From Gillisia sp. (GTDB lineage Bacteria > Bacteroidota > Bacteroidia > Flavobacteriales > Flavobacteriaceae), in contig JAGXIL010000019.1 in the NCBI GenBank assembly GCA_024635655.1, positions 1 to 64,000 on the forward strand: a DNA stretch of 64,000 nucleotides, given 5' to 3'. Positions 13,895 to 20,200 of the stretch are shown here, piece after piece. The first letter of the stretch is position 1, and the number at the start of each line of letters is the position of its first letter. The notes beneath the pieces were generated by a model. It saw only the letters and a list, made by a program, of their open reading frames with translations. It made no database searches and was not told the DNA's origin. The translations under genes were made by a program, and so were the position numbers.

Positions 13895-14155
13895 TTATTT
13901 CCCGTAATGGTAGCGGCAGGCTGCTATTAGTAATTCCTTATTTTCATATTTATATACCAATCGATGTTCTGATGTTATTCGTCTAGACCAATAACCTGTA
14001 GATCATCTTTTTAAAGTTTCCGGCTTACCTGGTCCTTCAAAAGGTGTGCGCATACAGCACTTAATAAGTTCATTGATTCGTCTTACTATTTTCTTGTCGG
14101 TTTTGTGCCAGTACAAATAGTCATCCCAGGAAGAAGTGGACCAGGTTAATTTCAT
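13895..14155 (-). pseudogene. YoeB/Txe-family toxin, interrupted by an in-frame TGA
   Basis: The frame from ATG 14155 to TAA 13895 spells an 86-residue YoeB-type mRNA interferase (WDDYLYWHKTDKKIVRRINELI, then GYWSRRI, SEHRLVYKY, CRYHYGK), the full length of the family. Codon 51 is TGA (14003-14005), just before GYWSRRI, so the C-terminal half with the catalytic residues cannot be made by normal translation. Reading the codons around the stop one base out of phase gives DDL, which fits the usual LKxxLxGYW pattern, so a compensating pair of indels is one possible cause. Begins on the base after the antitoxin's stop codon. Confidence 0.85.
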
Positions 14156-14404
14156 CTATTCAATTAGATCTTTTTGAGCACCTTTGCCGCTTTCAAGTTC
14201 TTTAATAGAATTTAATAAAACATCCCTGTTTTTTCCTGTTATTAAGTAAGTGGTTTCCTTTAAGGAGTTATATTCATCTAAGGATATTAAAACAAGATCT
14301 TTCCCGTTTTTGCGCTTAATAATGATATCACTTACATCATTAACTGCTTTATCGAACCAATGCTTTAGATTAGCACGAAATTCAGAATAGTTTACTGTTT
14401 CCAT
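14156..14404 (-). CDS. Phd/YefM family antitoxin
   Basis: An 82-residue antitoxin: METVNYSEFRANLKHWFDKA at the start, then DIIIKRKNGKDLVLISLDEYNSLKET, the conserved YefM DNA-binding and dimerisation core; the C-terminal tail would wrap the toxin. The ATG at 14404 is preferred over an upstream start 18 codons earlier because it matches the family N-terminus. The stop directly abuts the ATG of the decayed yoeB. YefM proteins repress their own operon; a TTAAAGTACTTAAATAAGTACTTTAAA palindromic stretch just upstream (about 14418-14444) is a candidate operator. Confidence 0.88.
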   Translation of the reverse strand: METVNYSEFRANLKHWFDKAVNDVSDIIIKRKNGKDLVLISLDEYNSLKETTYLITGKNRDVLLNSIKELESGKGAQKDLIE

Positions 14405-14417
14405 AATGCAAAGATAT

Positions 14418-14444
14418 TTAAAGTACTTAAATAAGTACTTTAAA
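14418..14444. promoter_or_regulatory. Candidate antitoxin operator palindrome
   Basis: Two AAGTACTT words, themselves palindromic, flank AAATA about 15-40 bases upstream of the yefM-like start codon. YefM/YoeB complexes bind paired short palindromes of the TGTACA type in known systems, so this position and symmetry are suggestive. Inference only. Confidence 0.45.
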
Positions 14445-14556
14445 TTAATCTTCAACAAAATTATAATTTTCGTCTAAATGCTTTTTTATCCTAAAGTTAA
14501 CATTGAAAATTAAATCAGCAAAGAAATAATAAATACATTAAAAGATACAGCTAATT

Positions 14557-14588
14557 AGCCCTCACAGATTTTAACTTTGTGGGGGGCT
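14557..14588. terminator. Hairpin beside the degenerate mfd tail copy
   Basis: AGCCCTCACA (14557-14566) pairs imperfectly with TGTGGGGGGCT (14578-14588). A similar AGCCCT...AGGGCT hairpin lies in the same relative place beyond the real mfd end (16996-17024), so this appears to be the duplicated mfd terminator. Confidence 0.5.
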
Positions 14589-14639
14589 TTATACTTTTAA
14601 AGATGAAATTTTCAGTTAAGGACAAGATGTTCACAGTCC

Positions 14640-14753
14640 CTATCTTTGGGTTAAGAGGCTCATTTCCTCTTTAATTCTCAAATCCAACGGCTCCAAAACT
14701 TTGAATGCCCGCTTAATAGAAGTTATCTTTTAAAAAATGAGCAACAATCTCAG
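14640..14753 (-). pseudogene. Degenerate duplicate of the mfd 3' end
   Basis: On the minus strand these 38 codons read LRLLLIF, stop, KITSIKRAFKVLEPLDLRIK, EEMSLLTQR, stop. The tail at the true mfd locus (17057-17160) reads LRLLLTFEKITSVDRALKV, LEPLDLRVKEEIAP, stop. The match is clear in both protein and DNA; one Glu codon has become TAA here. The fragment has no start and no upstream mfd sequence. Confidence 0.85.
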
Positions 14754-14923
14754 TCATTGGGGTATTTTTCTACTGAAAATATGATAAATTTCAAAATAAA
14801 TTAGGAAGTCTAATATATATATATATTGCCAATTCAAAATCCGCTTTCTGCTGCTTTTTAAGCTTCATGTCCCTACACATTTAAATACAGAATTTTTAAT
14901 TAAATTTTAAAAATTCATATAAA
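14754..14923. other. A/T-rich gap at the left edge of the island
   Basis: Non-coding, with a run of alternating A and T at 14813-14826. It is where the mfd-like sequence ends and the island genes begin. No terminal inverted repeat or integrase is visible. Confidence 0.5.
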
Positions 14924-16033
14924 ATGAAGAAAATTTACATTTACCTACCCTTTATTCTTTTTTTTATTATTGGATGTGAAAAGGAGGAAATTTTAGATAC
15001 GCCCGATTTTCAAAATCAGTATTCGACGGTATCCAAAAAAGAAGCCCTTGAACATTTAACAACCTTGAATTCAAAAAATAAACAACAAAATTCAAATCTT
15101 GAAATATATTATGATCAAATAAGACAACAACCCATATTTAACAGCGATGAATTAATTACAATAATTCCTGCTCAAATTAAGAATACAAGTATTGAAAGTG
15201 AAATTTATGTTCTATATATAAATGGAAAAATCGAACATGTTCTTTTTAGTAAAATTTCTAACGGTGCTCAAGAAAATTATCTATTCAGCGGAATATTAAG
15301 TATTACCGATTTAAATGGTAAGTTTTTGAAAAGGTATCGTGTAAAAGATGGATTATTTACATCCCAATTTTTCTTAAAAGATAAAAACAACAAGCTTGAG
15401 GATTGTACTGGCGATGGTTGGGGAGATGGACTGGGTTGTGAACAGGAATTAGAAGAAGTTGTACTTATTGCGCCCGAACAACCTGCAAACACAGTTCCTG
15501 TAGCTGGAATTTATGATTCTCCTGATTATCAGGATTCCTCACTTTATGAGGACCAAAGTGGATATATTGGTTATAATAGTGATGAAAAAAAAGATATTGG
15601 ACCCAGCTGTGAAAGTTTTAACTTTACAAAAATTCATGAAGAATCAACTTGGCAAGAAGCAGCGGTTAAAAATGTAACATTCAAAGTAGTTGTTCTAACG
15701 CCAGAGGGTTTAAAAAAAACTTATGATATTTCATTCCCTCAACCTATTCTATTTGGAATGCCTGCAAATATGATAAACGGTGGAGATATATCCCCAGGAT
15801 TAGCAGCAGAATTATCTGCACAAGCATTACAATTAAGCATGAATGAAACTGTAAGTAGATATGGTAATACGCAATTCCCTCAATCAATTGTAGAATCATA
15901 TTTTAAAGAGAGGTTGAAATACAATTACCCTCTTGTCACAAATGGTGGAAGGGTTAATTTTAATCCTATGGCCTATGATGTAATTCCAACGGAATTTGAA
16001 ACTAATATGTTTGGCAATGGAAACTGCGATTGA
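14924..16033 (+). CDS. Lipoprotein of unknown function with an EEVVLIAP linker (possible surface effector)
   Basis: A 369-residue protein with a clear lipoprotein signal, KKIYIYLPFILFFIIGC (C18). Residues about 20-155 form an N-terminal domain; at about 163-190 there is a low-complexity cysteine/glycine segment, CTGDGWGDGLGCEQ followed by ELEEVVLIAP, like the ELEEVVVTA linkers I know from Bacteroidetes surface or toxin-like proteins. The C-terminal part (from about 215) is distinct: SCESFNFTKIHEESTWQEA, then a 150-residue region with no motif I recognise. Codon use and base composition are visibly richer in A/T than the flanking genes. The next gene overlaps its 3' end, as in effector/immunity pairs. 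That reading is inference. Confidence 0.72.
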   Translation: MKKIYIYLPFILFFIIGCEKEEILDTPDFQNQYSTVSKKEALEHLTTLNSKNKQQNSNLEIYYDQIRQQPIFNSDELITIIPAQIKNTSIESEIYVLYINGKIEHVLFSKISNGAQENYLFSGILSITDLNGKFLKRYRVKDGLFTSQFFLKDKNNKLEDCTGDGWGDGLGCEQELEEVVLIAPEQPANTVPVAGIYDSPDYQDSSLYEDQSGYIGYNSDEKKDIGPSCESFNFTKIHEESTWQEAAVKNVTFKVVVLTPEGLKKTYDISFPQPILFGMPANMINGGDISPGLAAELSAQALQLSMNETVSRYGNTQFPQSIVESYFKERLKYNYPLVTNGGRVNFNPMAYDVIPTEFETNMFGNGNCD

Positions 16034-16616
16034 AAATAAAAATTACGAATTAGAGATTTTAAAAAATTTAGCATATTCTTTTTATCCAAAAGGTATATGC
16101 TCCATAAAACAACTTCCTAAATATAAAAGTACACCACAATTCAAATTACTTGATGAAATAATACAAAAGCATAAAGCAAAACCTTTACTTCCATTCATCA
16201 AGGATTTTAAACAACTCCCTACTAATAAAATTGCAAGTGATGTTACGCGCTTTTCATGGAAAGATAGGGCTTATAACTTTCAGCTCATAGAGGTGAAAGA
16301 AAAATTTTTAATAAGTATATGCCTTAATATAAGCATTCTCATTCCTTACTATACAATTTATGTGGTCCGTGTGGAATTAAAAGAAAATACCCAAGAATGG
16401 TTAACTCTTCCCAATAAGTTAAATTCTTTTGAAGAACAGATTCATAAAAACGACATAGATCTGATTGAAGATTTGGTAGAAAAAAAATTAAATTTAAAAA
16501 AACTACCTATTAGCGCATTTTCTACCCACATAGAGGACATTAATTTTCAAGATCAAAGGATGGGAGATTTTTCAATATTTAATGCCTTTTTTTTAAACGA
16601 TTTTTTTATTCAATAA
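16017..16616 (+). CDS. Hypothetical protein overlapping the lipoprotein gene
   Basis: About 199 residues from the ATG at 16017, which overlaps the previous stop by 17 bases; a TTG seven codons upstream also opens the frame. No signal peptide. One hydrophobic stretch (FLISICLNISILIPYYTIYVV, about 100-120) could be a buried strand pair or a membrane segment. Rich in lysine, phenylalanine and isoleucine. I do not recognise a family. The overlap implies translational coupling with the lipoprotein, so the two products probably work together, perhaps as protection against it. Confidence 0.65.
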   Translation: METAIENKNYELEILKNLAYSFYPKGICSIKQLPKYKSTPQFKLLDEIIQKHKAKPLLPFIKDFKQLPTNKIASDVTRFSWKDRAYNFQLIEVKEKFLISICLNISILIPYYTIYVVRVELKENTQEWLTLPNKLNSFEEQIHKNDIDLIEDLVEKKLNLKKLPISAFSTHIEDINFQDQRMGDFSIFNAFFLNDFFIQ

Positions 16617-16618
16617 TT

Positions 16619-16804
16619 ATGCGCTCATATTTAATTTTTTCTGCGATAGTAATTATTCTGGGATTTTTATTAAAAGGTAAAATACTTACTATAAATATTT
16701 ATTCTTTTTATTTTTTAATTGATTATTTATTTATCAGTCTAATTATTATAATTTTAATTAATTTATTTTACATCAGTTTTAAAATTTTCAAAAAGTTTAA
16801 CTGA
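16619..16804 (+). CDS. Small membrane protein, 61 residues
   Basis: Starts two bases after the previous stop. The sequence is almost entirely hydrophobic, with two predicted membrane helices (LIFSAIVIILGFLLKG and IDYLFISLIIIILINLFYI) and a basic C-terminal end (KIFKKFN). No family recognised. Its tight spacing places it in one transcription unit with the two preceding genes. Confidence 0.5.
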   Translation: MRSYLIFSAIVIILGFLLKGKILTINIYSFYFLIDYLFISLIIIILINLFYISFKIFKKFN

Positions 16805-16995
16805 TAGAATAATATTTTTTTAAAATAACTTTTTTATTCTTCTCCTTTAACTGATTTCTCCTATTCGAAAATTATATTGAAAGCAGAATGAATGAAAACC
16901 AGTATGCAAAGATTCTGTATGGCTGTTATAATATCTATGAAAAGTGTGCCATCCACCCCGGTTAAGATTAGTCAATCAATAATTTAATTTTCAGC

Positions 16996-17024
16996 AGCCC
17001 TTATGGATTAAAAATGTGAGGGCT
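16996..17024. terminator. Hairpin between the island and the mfd end
   Basis: AGCCCT (16996-17001) pairs with AGGGCT (17019-17024). On the plus strand it is followed by ATTTATTTATTTTT, so it can end transcription of the island genes; on the other strand it lies beyond the mfd tail. A related hairpin flanks the duplicate tail at 14557-14588. Confidence 0.5.
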
Positions 17025-17056
17025 ATTTATTTATTTTTACTGTTTCCCTTTGGGGG

Positions 17057-17224
17057 CTAGGGGGCTATTTCCTCCTTCACCCGCAAATCCAGCGGCTCCA
17101 GCACCTTAAGCGCCCTATCTACAGAAGTGATCTTTTCAAATGTCAACAACAACCTCAACCCTGCCCGGGTCTTCTTTTCCTTCATCGTGCAGGAGTGGGA
17201 ATGGGTTTGCACGTATTGCAGTAA
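17057..17224 (-). other. Conserved mfd C-terminal codons beyond an in-frame amber stop
   Basis: Directly after the TAG that ends the mfd frame, the same frame stays open for 55 codons to a TAG at 17057-17059: LLQYVQTHSHSCTMKEKKTR, AGLRLLLTFEKITSVDRALK, VLEPLDLRVKEEIAP. This is the ordinary C-terminal end of Bacteroidetes Mfd proteins, so the stop lies inside the ancestral gene. Without readthrough these residues are lost. Confidence 0.85.
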
Positions 17225-20200
17225 CTAAGTGAAAGCATTTGTATGATAGAAACCGGATTGTTGATCGGCAATGAAATAGCCTATTAATTTGCCCTGCTTC
17301 ATCACCACTTTTTCCAAACCTATATGCGAGGCGATCCATTTGATTCGTACGCTGTTTAATAAGTCAATTGCCTGTGTTGGCAGTTCTCCAAATCTATCTA
17401 CCAGTTTGGCTTCGAATTTTTGCAGCTCCTCCTCGGTTTTAATACTGTTTAATTCAGTGTAAAGATTTAATCTTTCTGAAATGTTGTTGATATAATCATC
17501 AGGGAATAAAAGTTCAAAATCGGAATCTATTTGGGTGTCTTTGACAAAGGTTTTGTCCTCGACATCTTCGTTTTTCTGGTACAGATCCTTAAACTCATTT
17601 TCCTTGAGTTCTTCAATAGCTTCGTTTAATATTTTTTGATAGGTATCAAATCCTATTTCATTAATAAATCCGCTTTGTTCCCCACCTAAAAGATCTCCTG
17701 CCCCACGTATCTCCAGATCCTTCATCGCAATGTTAAACCCGCTGCCCAGTTCGCTGAACTGTTCTAGAGCAGTTATTCGCTTCCTGGCATCATCGGTCAT
17801 TGCTGAAAATGGTGGTGTGATAAAGTAACAGAAAGCTTTTTTATTGCTTCGGCCTACACGTCCTCGCATTTGGTGCAGGTCTGAAAGTCCGAAGTTGTTG
17901 GCGTTATTGATAAAGATGGTGTTGGCATTGGTCACATCGAGTCCGCTTTCAACGATGGTGGTAGAGACCAGCACATCAAATTCATTATTCATAAAGGAAA
18001 GCATCAAATTCTCCAGCTTTTTTCCTTCCATTTGTCCGTGGCCTACTCCCACTTTGGCATCTGGCACCAGGCGCTGGATCATTCCGGCGACAACTTTAAT
18101 ATTTTCAATTCGGTTATGGATAAAGAACACCTGCCCCCCCCGCTGTATCTCATAAGAAATGGCATCGCGTATGGTTTCTTCGGTAAATCGTACCACGTGA
18201 GTTTCAATCGGGTAACGGTTTGGTGGCGCAGTGGTAATGGTAGAGAGATCCCGGGCTGCCATTAAACTGAATTGTAATGTACGCGGGATAGGCGTTGCCG
18301 TTAAGGTCAAGGTATCTACATTTTCCTTGATAGTTTTAAGTTTATCCTTTACCGCAACTCCAAATTTTTGTTCCTCATCTACAATGAGCAATCCCAGATC
18401 TTTGAACTTCACAGTTTTGCTCACCAACTGGTGGGTTCCAATGATGATATCAACTCTTCCATTCTCAAGGTCGGCAAGGGTGTCCCGCCGCTCTTTTGCA
18501 GTTCTAAACCTGTTGAGATAATCTACGGTTACAGGAAAATCCTTCAGTCTTTCGGTAAAAGTTTTATGATGCTGAAATGCAAGGATGGTAGTAGGCACCA
18601 AAACTGCAACTTGTTTTCCGTTATCTACTGCCTTAAAGGCGGCCCGGATAGCAACTTCTGTCTTTCCGAAACCTACATCCCCACAAACCAGGCGGTCCAT
18701 GGGACGTTCGTTTTCCATATCTTCCTTTACCGCAGCCGTAGCTGTGGTCTGATCCGGCGTGTCTTCGTAAATAAAAGAAGCTTCCAGCTCGTGCTGCAAA
18801 TAAGAATCGGGACCATAAGCAAAGCCCTTTTGCAGCCTTCGCTTGGCATATAGTTCAATTAAATTATAGGCGATATGCTTTACGCGGGACTTTGTCTTTT
18901 CTTTTAAGTTCTTCCAGGCGTTGCTGCCCAGCTTGTATATTTTGGGAGGTTTTCCATCCTTCCCGTTGAATTTGGAGATCTTGTGCAGCGAGTGAATGCT
19001 CAGGTACAAAATATCGCGCTCCCCGTACACCAGCTTGATCGCTTCCTGCATTTTGCCCTCCACTTCGATCTTCTGAAGTCCGCCAAATTTTCCTATTCCG
19101 TGGTCAATGTGGGTCACATAATCGCCAACTTCTAAATTGGTGAGTTCCTTGAGCGTGATCGCCTGTTTCTTGGCGTAACCGTTCTTAAGCTGGAATTTGT
19201 GATAGCGCTCAAAGATCTGGTGATCGGTATAACAGGCCATTTTTGACACCTCATCAATAAATCCCTGAAACATGGAAAGTACCACGGTATGATATTTCAC
19301 CTCCCGGTCCTGGTCATCAAAGATATCGTGAAAGCGCTTCGCCTGCTGATCGCTAACGCAAAAAATATAGTTGGTGTACCCGGCTTCAGAATTTTCAATT
19401 AGGTTATCGATCAAAAGATCAAATTGCTTATTGAATGAAGGCTGGGGTTTGGTGTTGTACTCGATAATGTTTTGAGTATCATTCACGTTAGATCCTGAAA
19501 CAAGCCTGCCTGCCGGCAAGGCAGGTTCAGGATGACCTGAAAAGGAGAATCCAGAACCAAGTAAATACGCCTGCGTACTCAATTCCACTACGCTGAACTC
19601 TACCAACTGCCGTTTGATCATTTCGGCATTGCAGAAAAGTTCTTCGGGTTTGCTGTGTTTTATTTCTTCGGAAATGGTTTTAAACGCTTCTTCGGCTTTG
19701 CTGAAAAGTTTATCCATTTGTGCCGTGAACAGGTCGAGATCTTTCATAAAGATCACGGTATTGGCCGAAATATATTTTAGAAAGCTTTCCCGGATCTCAT
19801 CCAGCTTCTTGTTCTCCACATTGGGCATTACAGAGATCTTCTTCACCTGCTCTGTAGAAAGCTGGGTCTCTACATCAAAGCTTCGTATGCTATCTACCTC
19901 ATCTCCAAAAAACTCGATTCTATAAGGTTCGTCATTACTGAAAGAAAAAACATCTATGATCCCACCCCGCACTGAAAACTCCCCCGGTTCGGTGACAAAA
20001 TCCACTCTTTTAAATTTGTACTCAAACAATATCTCGTTGACAAAATCTATGGAGAGGTTGTCGTTCAATGATATCTTAAGCGTGCTGCGGTCCAGCTCCT
20101 TCCGGGTGACCACTTTTTCAAAAAGCGCATCGGGGTAAGTGACAATGATCGCCGGTTTTTTACGGGAGTTTATCCGGTTCAAAACTTCAGCCCGCAGCAG

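Follow-up and report, generated by a model that had tools for sequence, protein, structure and literature searches.

Islands that carry an integrase and insert at the 3′ end of a gene restore that end and leave a second copy of it on their far side. SGI1, a genomic island located at trmE, is an example (PMC8409611, in excerpt). An arrangement of this kind is described here for mfd in 64,000 nucleotides of Gillisia sp. DNA (GenBank assembly GCA_024635655.1, contig JAGXIL010000019.1, positions 1 to 64,000), hereafter referred to as the window, where a block of three genes lies between the 3′ end joined to mfd (T1) and a second, decayed copy of that end (T2). Comparison with relatives indicates that small islands probably enter the mfd 3′ end, each with a tail of its own and cargo, and displace the resident tail; this judgement concerns the anatomy and history of the locus, not the recombinase. 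Features shared with SGI1-type islands are insertion at a gene 3′ end, a restored end and a far second copy. Unlike those islands, no integrase was found, the site is mfd, and ~0.8 to 8 kb separate mfd from the copies.

Displaced 3′ pieces also mark earlier events among the orphan modules of Rhs and contact-dependent growth inhibition (CDI) loci, although there the displaced piece is part of the toxin gene itself and here it is the end of mfd. Orphan C-terminal modules of Rhs and CDI are mentioned in the excerpted text of PMC5361080, which describes effector-immunity modules of the Vibrio cholerae type VI secretion system (T6SS) that are displaced sequentially, and proposes homology-facilitated illegitimate recombination as the cause. 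As in that excerpt, a new module appears beside an anchor, older parts are pushed downstream, and no integrase is known. What differs is that a housekeeping gene, mfd, serves as the anchor here and leaves its own 3′ end as the remnant, with joints that are close to one another.

Effector displacement in V. cholerae appears to be the closest described process, and the SitA family the closest described product. SitA proteins of myxobacteria are lipoprotein toxins that are encoded in prophage-like Mx-alpha repeats and act in a TraA-dependent manner (PMC5562445, in excerpt). The Gillisia islands resemble what that excerpt describes in encoding lipoproteins (here candidate toxins) whose N-termini are related and whose C-termini are not, in having an immunity gene (here a candidate) downstream, and in having several cassettes per genome. 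They are unlike it in that SitA resides in Mx-alpha repeats and depends on TraA; the likeness is one of gene layout.

Among the matches listed in searches of the open-licence literature, there was no description of mfd as an insertion site or of such islands in Gillisia, and no matching family of lipoprotein toxins in the phylum. The mfd gene would thus be a protein-gene insertion site that those matches did not turn up, and the lipoprotein family is unnamed in the libraries used (Pfam, NCBIfam and PADLOC; PHROGs was not among them). The old gene ends would constitute a record of the gain and displacement of surface toxins and cassettes in marine Flavobacteriaceae, and they raise the question of what brings about recombination within so short a part of mfd when no integrase lies next to it.

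A Second mfd 3′ End beyond the Gene Block

The presence of a second mfd tail beyond the block is confirmed. T2 is in frame on the minus strand, where its translation, LRLLLIF*KITSIKRAFKVLEPLDLRIKEEMS, matches the mfd C-terminus, LRLLLTFEKITSVDRALKVLEPLDLRVKEEIA, at 75% (tblastn). When the last 240 nt of mfd were compared with the 11 kb downstream, T2 was matched at 74% over 96 nt (blastn, E = 1.5e-11), and a profile of 31 living mfd ends recovered it at E = 4.5e-13 in a search of 152 flanks. Its local alignment score was 65; across 200 block shuffles of the tail, no score exceeded 31. A widespread repeat unrelated to mfd was considered as the source of T2 and rejected. The window is part of a 3.46-Mb draft assembly (its contig C51; 98 contigs, 82% complete) in which the DNA from 14557 to 14760 matches only itself, and in which a search with the tail protein gives the living copy, the decayed copy and no other match.

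Six copies were compared with mfd ends by codon position, the reference being chosen per copy (their own mfd for G001, G010 and the window's genome, G000; a relative for G454, G278 and Salegentibacter sediminis, G069). Differences numbered 22, 10 and 45 at positions 1, 2 and 3, respectively; the window copy alone showed 8, 1 and 10. The bias towards third positions indicates that the copies were still coding sequence while they diverged, a pattern not expected of a recent tandem duplication.

The first-pass annotation, made from the sequence alone, had described a decayed mfd tail, a living tail at mfd, related hairpins beside both, and an A/T-rich block between them. The decayed tail is present, with the extent given in Table 1 according to both blastn and the profile, instead of 14640–14753. 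For the living tail, the conserved C-terminus of mfd, which reads on the minus strand from 20515, does run to 17060 with the stop codon ending at 17057, but an in-frame TAG severs 17057–17224 from the main open reading frame (ORF). Both hairpins are there, though their folding is modest (z-scores of −1.7 and −1.3, with 9 and 20 of 200 shuffles, respectively, folding at least as well); they may represent the mfd terminator and its displaced relative. The description of the block holds. Its G+C content (14754–17050) is 28.5%, versus 40.5% for the window, and none of 247 segments of equal length (step 250) is as low, the closest being 28.6%.

Filled and Empty Sites among Relatives

The downstream flank of mfd was compared at 152 loci (118 + 34), with at least 9 kb downstream in 140 of them; at least four genomes (G022, G069, G008 and G020) are counted twice in this set. 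An extra same-strand mfd tail was found in eight of the 40 genomes screened in Gillisia (g1), a genus designated g8, and Salegentibacter (g51), the window's genome included. By genus, this amounts to four of 15 loci in Gillisia (G000, G001, G006 and G010, the last with two extra tails), three of 11 in g8 (G278, G454 and G447), and one of 14 in Salegentibacter (S. sediminis). Genus g8 is distinct from Christiangramia, as it falls apart from the named locus of that genus, L093. Seven of the eight genomes were recovered by a profile of living mfd ends only, and G006 by blastn only, its copy being too decayed for the profile. Cargo other than that of the window lies between the tail copies in G001, G006, G010, G278, G454, G447 and S. 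sediminis, and in a genome of a fourth genus, G407.

Empty sites were found as well. In G005, G008, G009 and G011, mfd and yraN are tail to tail with little between them, while in empty loci of g8 and Salegentibacter mfd adjoins other native neighbours. The far copy of G454 continues into a flank found directly after mfd in two empty g8 loci (L190 and L193), and in G278 the far copy is continuous with the flank seen in the sister genome G448 (L195).

A wider search, with the window's tail as query, covered 397 evenly sampled Flavobacteriaceae genomes; such a query will miss decayed copies in distant genera. Five genomes gave two tail matches, and those of G000, S. sediminis and G407 are real. 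Two were not counted: the second tail of G144 stems from overlapping ends of two contigs (exact overlap of 99 nt), and the second mfd end of G086 is on another contig of an assembly with 6% contamination.

Thirteen other loci matched their own mfd tail weakly and over short stretches (36 residues or 19–53 nt, with E from 3e-4 to 0.007). These matches were taken as chance; none was below E = 0.2 with the profile. A profile match in G013 was dropped, being that genome's own frame-broken mfd end (L017/L046), where mfd is split over two reading frames.

Direction of Insertion

In S. sediminis, the direction of the event can be read from its sister, G435. The mfd body of S. sediminis is closest to that of G435 (88.8%, versus 82.4% for the next), while its mfd tail is only 75% like that of G435 and has its best match (84%) in a Gillisia genome. 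The far copy, on the other hand, matches the G435 tail at 52 of 56 nt versus 39 of 56 for its own mfd tail. The far copy is therefore native and the joined tail foreign, which argues that the island rebuilt mfd there. In G278, mfd shares 98% identity with that of G448 over codons −90 to −30 ahead of the edge, compared with 82% in the tail.

The proposal that an element had inserted at the mfd 3′ end and rebuilt the gene is thus supported and is shown in S. sediminis, but the direction is unreadable in the window itself, where the ranking of relatives of the copy is flat, without a clear nearest one, and its own mfd comes fifth.

Position of the Joints

Left edges of the copies were located with a profile that offered 90 nt of upstream mfd, with a glycine codon at position 91. 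Matches start at profile position 74 in G001 and in the window, 77 in both copies of G010, and 79 in S. sediminis and G278. That is, six copies from five genomes and three genera have left edges within 6 nt, and readable copies start ~12–26 nt ahead of this one glycine codon, the starts of most copies being no more than ~15 nt apart. A palindrome at the left edge (AACCC...GGGTT) was set aside, as it is partly forced by codons and is weak in G006.

G407 (genus g223, L264 3554–4990) is the clearest and youngest-looking case. Here, mfd is followed by one convergent gene for a 382-aa protein (AAA_14 + DUF4143) and a second mfd tail, shortly past which the contig ends. The two tails are 1357 nt apart. 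Beginning with the glycine codon, they are identical for 80 nt, as far as the stop codon. On the left side of this stretch, 21 of 26 nt are shared before the sequences become unrelated; to the right of the stop codon the tails differ at once, and by eye a terminator-like hairpin occurs only after the far copy. In the 5 kb examined, the G407 cargo gave no lipoprotein match and no integrase match. Since this cargo is unrelated to the lipoprotein, duplication of the tail is not confined to loci with the lipoprotein cassette.

Cargo of the Islands

All eight genomes with extra tails in the three genera carry a lipoprotein gene or its remnant at mfd, reading towards mfd. In G447 the remnant is an HExxH piece of the lipoprotein, and in S. 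sediminis the tail copy does not directly adjoin the lipoprotein gene. The N-terminal family of the window's lipoprotein, A2, occurs in six of 43 genomes of the three genera, five times at mfd and in G011 on another contig; a second query added A2 members at mfd in G010 and S. sediminis and a non-mfd locus in G443. In six proteins (those of the window, G001, G006, G454, G278 and G011) the lipobox is followed by E/Q-K-E-E, the corresponding sequence in G010 being CEKDT. The optimal surface export signal of Capnocytophaga is C-X-K-(D/E)2, and the motif of Flavobacterium johnsoniae, SDDFE, differs from it (PMC5080379, in excerpt). The E/Q-K-E-E sequence fits the Capnocytophaga signal, and the lipoprotein is predicted to be surface-exposed.

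The C-termini vary. Seven that could be aligned contain an HExxH motif, while that of the window is another domain, such that A2 N-termini carry either HExxH C-termini (G454 and G006) or a different one (the window). HExxH toxins (Tox-MPTase) appear in the excerpted text of PMC3482391. An array of several HExxH C-terminal modules, separated by small genes, also lies downstream of mfd in another Flavobacteriaceae genome (L143, ~14.7–19.3 kb), where no mfd tail copy was found.

The C-terminal domain of the window's lipoprotein (residues 220–362) was found in one other genome of the 397 searched, G432 (E = 5e-26 among 14 ORFs). A homologue of the 206-aa protein is directly downstream of the domain there too (E = 2e-30 among 14 ORFs), and the first 160 residues of the G432 ORF are without detectable similarity. 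By eye, a 69-aa protein stands in G432 where the window has the 61-aa protein; no significant match between the two was computed. Such joint recurrence of domain and partner behind differing N-termini is as expected of a polymorphic toxin module. With an exchangeable C-terminus behind a related N-terminus, and an immunity gene candidate linked to it here and at one other locus, the cargo of the window is, as judged from sequence, most likely a polymorphic toxin with its immunity gene or genes.

Possible Mechanisms of Island Entry and Alternatives

Each island would bring its own version of the last ~30–40 mfd codons plus cargo. In Gillisia, g8 and Salegentibacter, this cargo would be a surface lipoprotein with an exchangeable C-terminus towards mfd, followed by one or more immunity genes; in G407 it would be the single AAA_14/DUF4143 ATPase gene. 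Insertion would fuse the resident mfd body to the tail of the island, and the resident tail, left on the far side, would decay. Successive insertions could stack beside mfd, as in G010.

A gene-end direct repeat (exact over 80 nt in G407), empty sites and a rebuilt gene (the foreign tail of S. sediminis, not that of the window) are features of integrase islands that were observed here; an integrase gene in or beside the island was not found. Nor was an integrase-bearing version encountered: a profile of 12 integrases from 16 stretches, for which there was no separate positive control, found no tyrosine integrase at any of the 152 mfd loci. PF00589 hits were also located in 11 genomes that carry islands or other cargo, and none of them lies within 70 kb of mfd on the available contigs, which end sooner than 70 kb in G000, G447 and G454.

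A targeted event is favoured by the closeness of the edges in four genera and by the island tail of G407, which does not extend past the stop codon. There is an even chance that recombination was focused on this stretch of mfd by a recombinase that acts in trans or has since been lost. The fuller account is one of integrase-free, site-focused loading of small cassettes, chiefly toxin-immunity pairs, into a single housekeeping gene. A recombinase encoded elsewhere, or one of the host, would target the mfd 3′ end across four or more genera, and the mfd ends left behind would record the acquisitions in layers. The probability of this account is somewhat below even.

A number of observations weigh against the island account and these readings of it. 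No recombinase gene was found with the islands in searches for tyrosine integrases, serine recombinases not having been searched. The edges are unequal, the copy of G454 starting from position 52 (clearly from ~65) and that of G407 at about −26 nt, while that of G447 is cut at 134. With a shorter profile, the edge of the window's copy shifts from 74 to a position that corresponds to 92; as this places its start ~16 nt further in, the window's own edge is soft. In S. sediminis and G278, mismatches to the sister crowd ~15–40 nt upstream of the T2 edge, unlike what a strict reciprocal crossover would give. T2 of G278 is only 67/93 like the tail of its sister, though the flank is nearly the same. 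Also, copies of one genus may share a founder, hence the events would be fewer than the copies.

Some of these points suit homology-facilitated illegitimate recombination, in which incoming DNA pairs with resident mfd and its other end joins non-homologously inside the resident tail. Once a tail-cargo-tail unit existed, both tails could act as homology arms for its spread by ordinary recombination. This explanation is a serious one, and its probability is somewhat below even. A homologous end within mfd is plausible, and the joints are near one another without coinciding. The lack of a detected integrase agrees with it, as does the logic proposed for the displaced T6SS effector genes of V. cholerae in the excerpted text of PMC5361080. 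The crowded mismatches upstream of the edge in S. sediminis and G278, together with the unequal edges, which vary by ~15 nt or more, argue for recombination anchored in mfd. Among Gillisia islands, the leaders of the lipoprotein genes are related and the 75 nt that precede T2 are unrelated, a pattern that likewise favours this explanation; exceptions, in which these 75 nt are related to each other, are the two G010 units and the two g8 islands. Taken by itself, the combination of related leaders and unrelated spacers is compatible with separate joining events in a single stretch as well as with rapid spacer decay. Against illegitimate recombination, its joints should scatter more widely than those of the six copies from three genera that begin within 6 nt of one another. 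In addition, T2 of S. sediminis is native almost from its first base, and the island tail of G407 halts at the stop codon, by eye without a terminator.

The preferred reading of the cargo, that the lipoprotein is a toxin, has an alternative of its own, namely that it is some other kind of surface protein, such as a protease, encoded at a recombination hotspot, and that its partner is not an immunity protein. This is unlikely, though it draws on further observations that tell against the toxin reading. The lipoprotein would be an antibacterial toxin by virtue of its gene arrangement, and G432 is the sole second locus found for the window's putative toxin module. No domain of the cargo exceeded the cut-off in Pfam, NCBIfam, PADLOC or PDB sequences, a result that includes all toxin families in them; the window's proteins were compared with Pfam, NCBIfam and PADLOC and those of relatives with Pfam, one lipoprotein and one partner also being compared with NCBIfam. 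The HExxH motifs of the seven aligned C-termini would fit surface proteases, these domains giving only a SprT-like hint below the cut-off (E = 0.026; PDB, E = 0.21), and G407 has unrelated cargo at the same site. What speaks for a toxin is that the window's C-terminal domain and partner recur together behind an N-terminus without detectable similarity, and that cassettes with small partner genes are stacked. An AlphaFold model of the lipoprotein alone was unusable (pLDDT of 34.9). The lipoprotein of the window had no match in PLSDB or INPHARED, and the tail had 81 pattern matches in IMG/VR, with no relative among them.

Tandem duplication of the mfd end within one genome, with cargo inserted later between the copies, had been offered in the first-pass annotation and is very improbable: the copies of G001, G006 and G010 (first copy) do have their own mfd as best match, which counts against foreign tails and taken alone would allow it, and the G407 tails are identical over 80 nt, but the copies of S. 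sediminis, G454 and G447 are closer to other species than to their own mfd, the differences show the codon-position bias noted above, and the copies start similarly in four genera.

Other Features of the Locus

The features of the window around the block are listed in Table 1. All three genes between T1 and T2 are on the plus strand and oriented towards mfd.

Table 1. Coordinates of mfd, its two 3′ ends and neighbouring features in the window.
Feature	Position	Strand	Remarks
mfd main ORF, 1096 aa	17225..20515	-	Ends at in-frame TAG 17225-17227
T1, mfd 3′ end joined to mfd	17057..17224	-	55 open codons past TAG, then usual stop
Hairpin after T1	16996..17024		Likely mfd terminator
61-aa protein gene	16619..16804	+	Membrane-like by eye
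206-aa protein gene, candidate immunity protein	15996..16616	+	No signal peptide by eye; homologue in G432
Lipoprotein gene, 369 aa	14924..16033	+	Lipobox then EKEE; N-terminal family A2; C-terminal candidate toxin domain
Leader of lipoprotein gene	14820..14923	+	Related to leaders in G001 and G010, more weakly in G006; limits by eye
T2, decayed second mfd 3′ end	14657..14771	-	In-frame stops; left edge uncertain by ~15 nt
Hairpin after T2	14557..14588		Relative of mfd hairpin
Phd/YefM antitoxin and shortened YoeB toxin ORF	14003..14458	-	Distal flank, beyond T2

The Pfam TRCF match of mfd is nearly complete (2–91 of 95) before the TAG, which is 55 codons ahead of the usual mfd end; the TAG may be a real truncation or an assembly error. 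In some genomes, G001, G069, G278 and G448 among them, the mfd stop codon is overlapped or followed by a short G/C-rich repeat (CCCCCTAACCCCCGAAGGGGG type).

In G010 (L037), three lipoprotein cassettes, some of them broken, are stacked at mfd, together with two displaced tails that lie between and behind the cassettes. Unrelated genes also occupy the space from mfd to yraN in loci L032, L034, L039, L040, L046, L051 and L188, where no tail copy was found, which suggests that the spot is a general hotspot.

Beyond T2, the YoeB-type toxin ORF (14003–14155) is short, with 50 aa covering the first 45 of 80 profile positions, whereas the match of its antitoxin partner spans nearly the whole profile. 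A gene of the same cluster as this antitoxin also follows T2 in G001 and G010.

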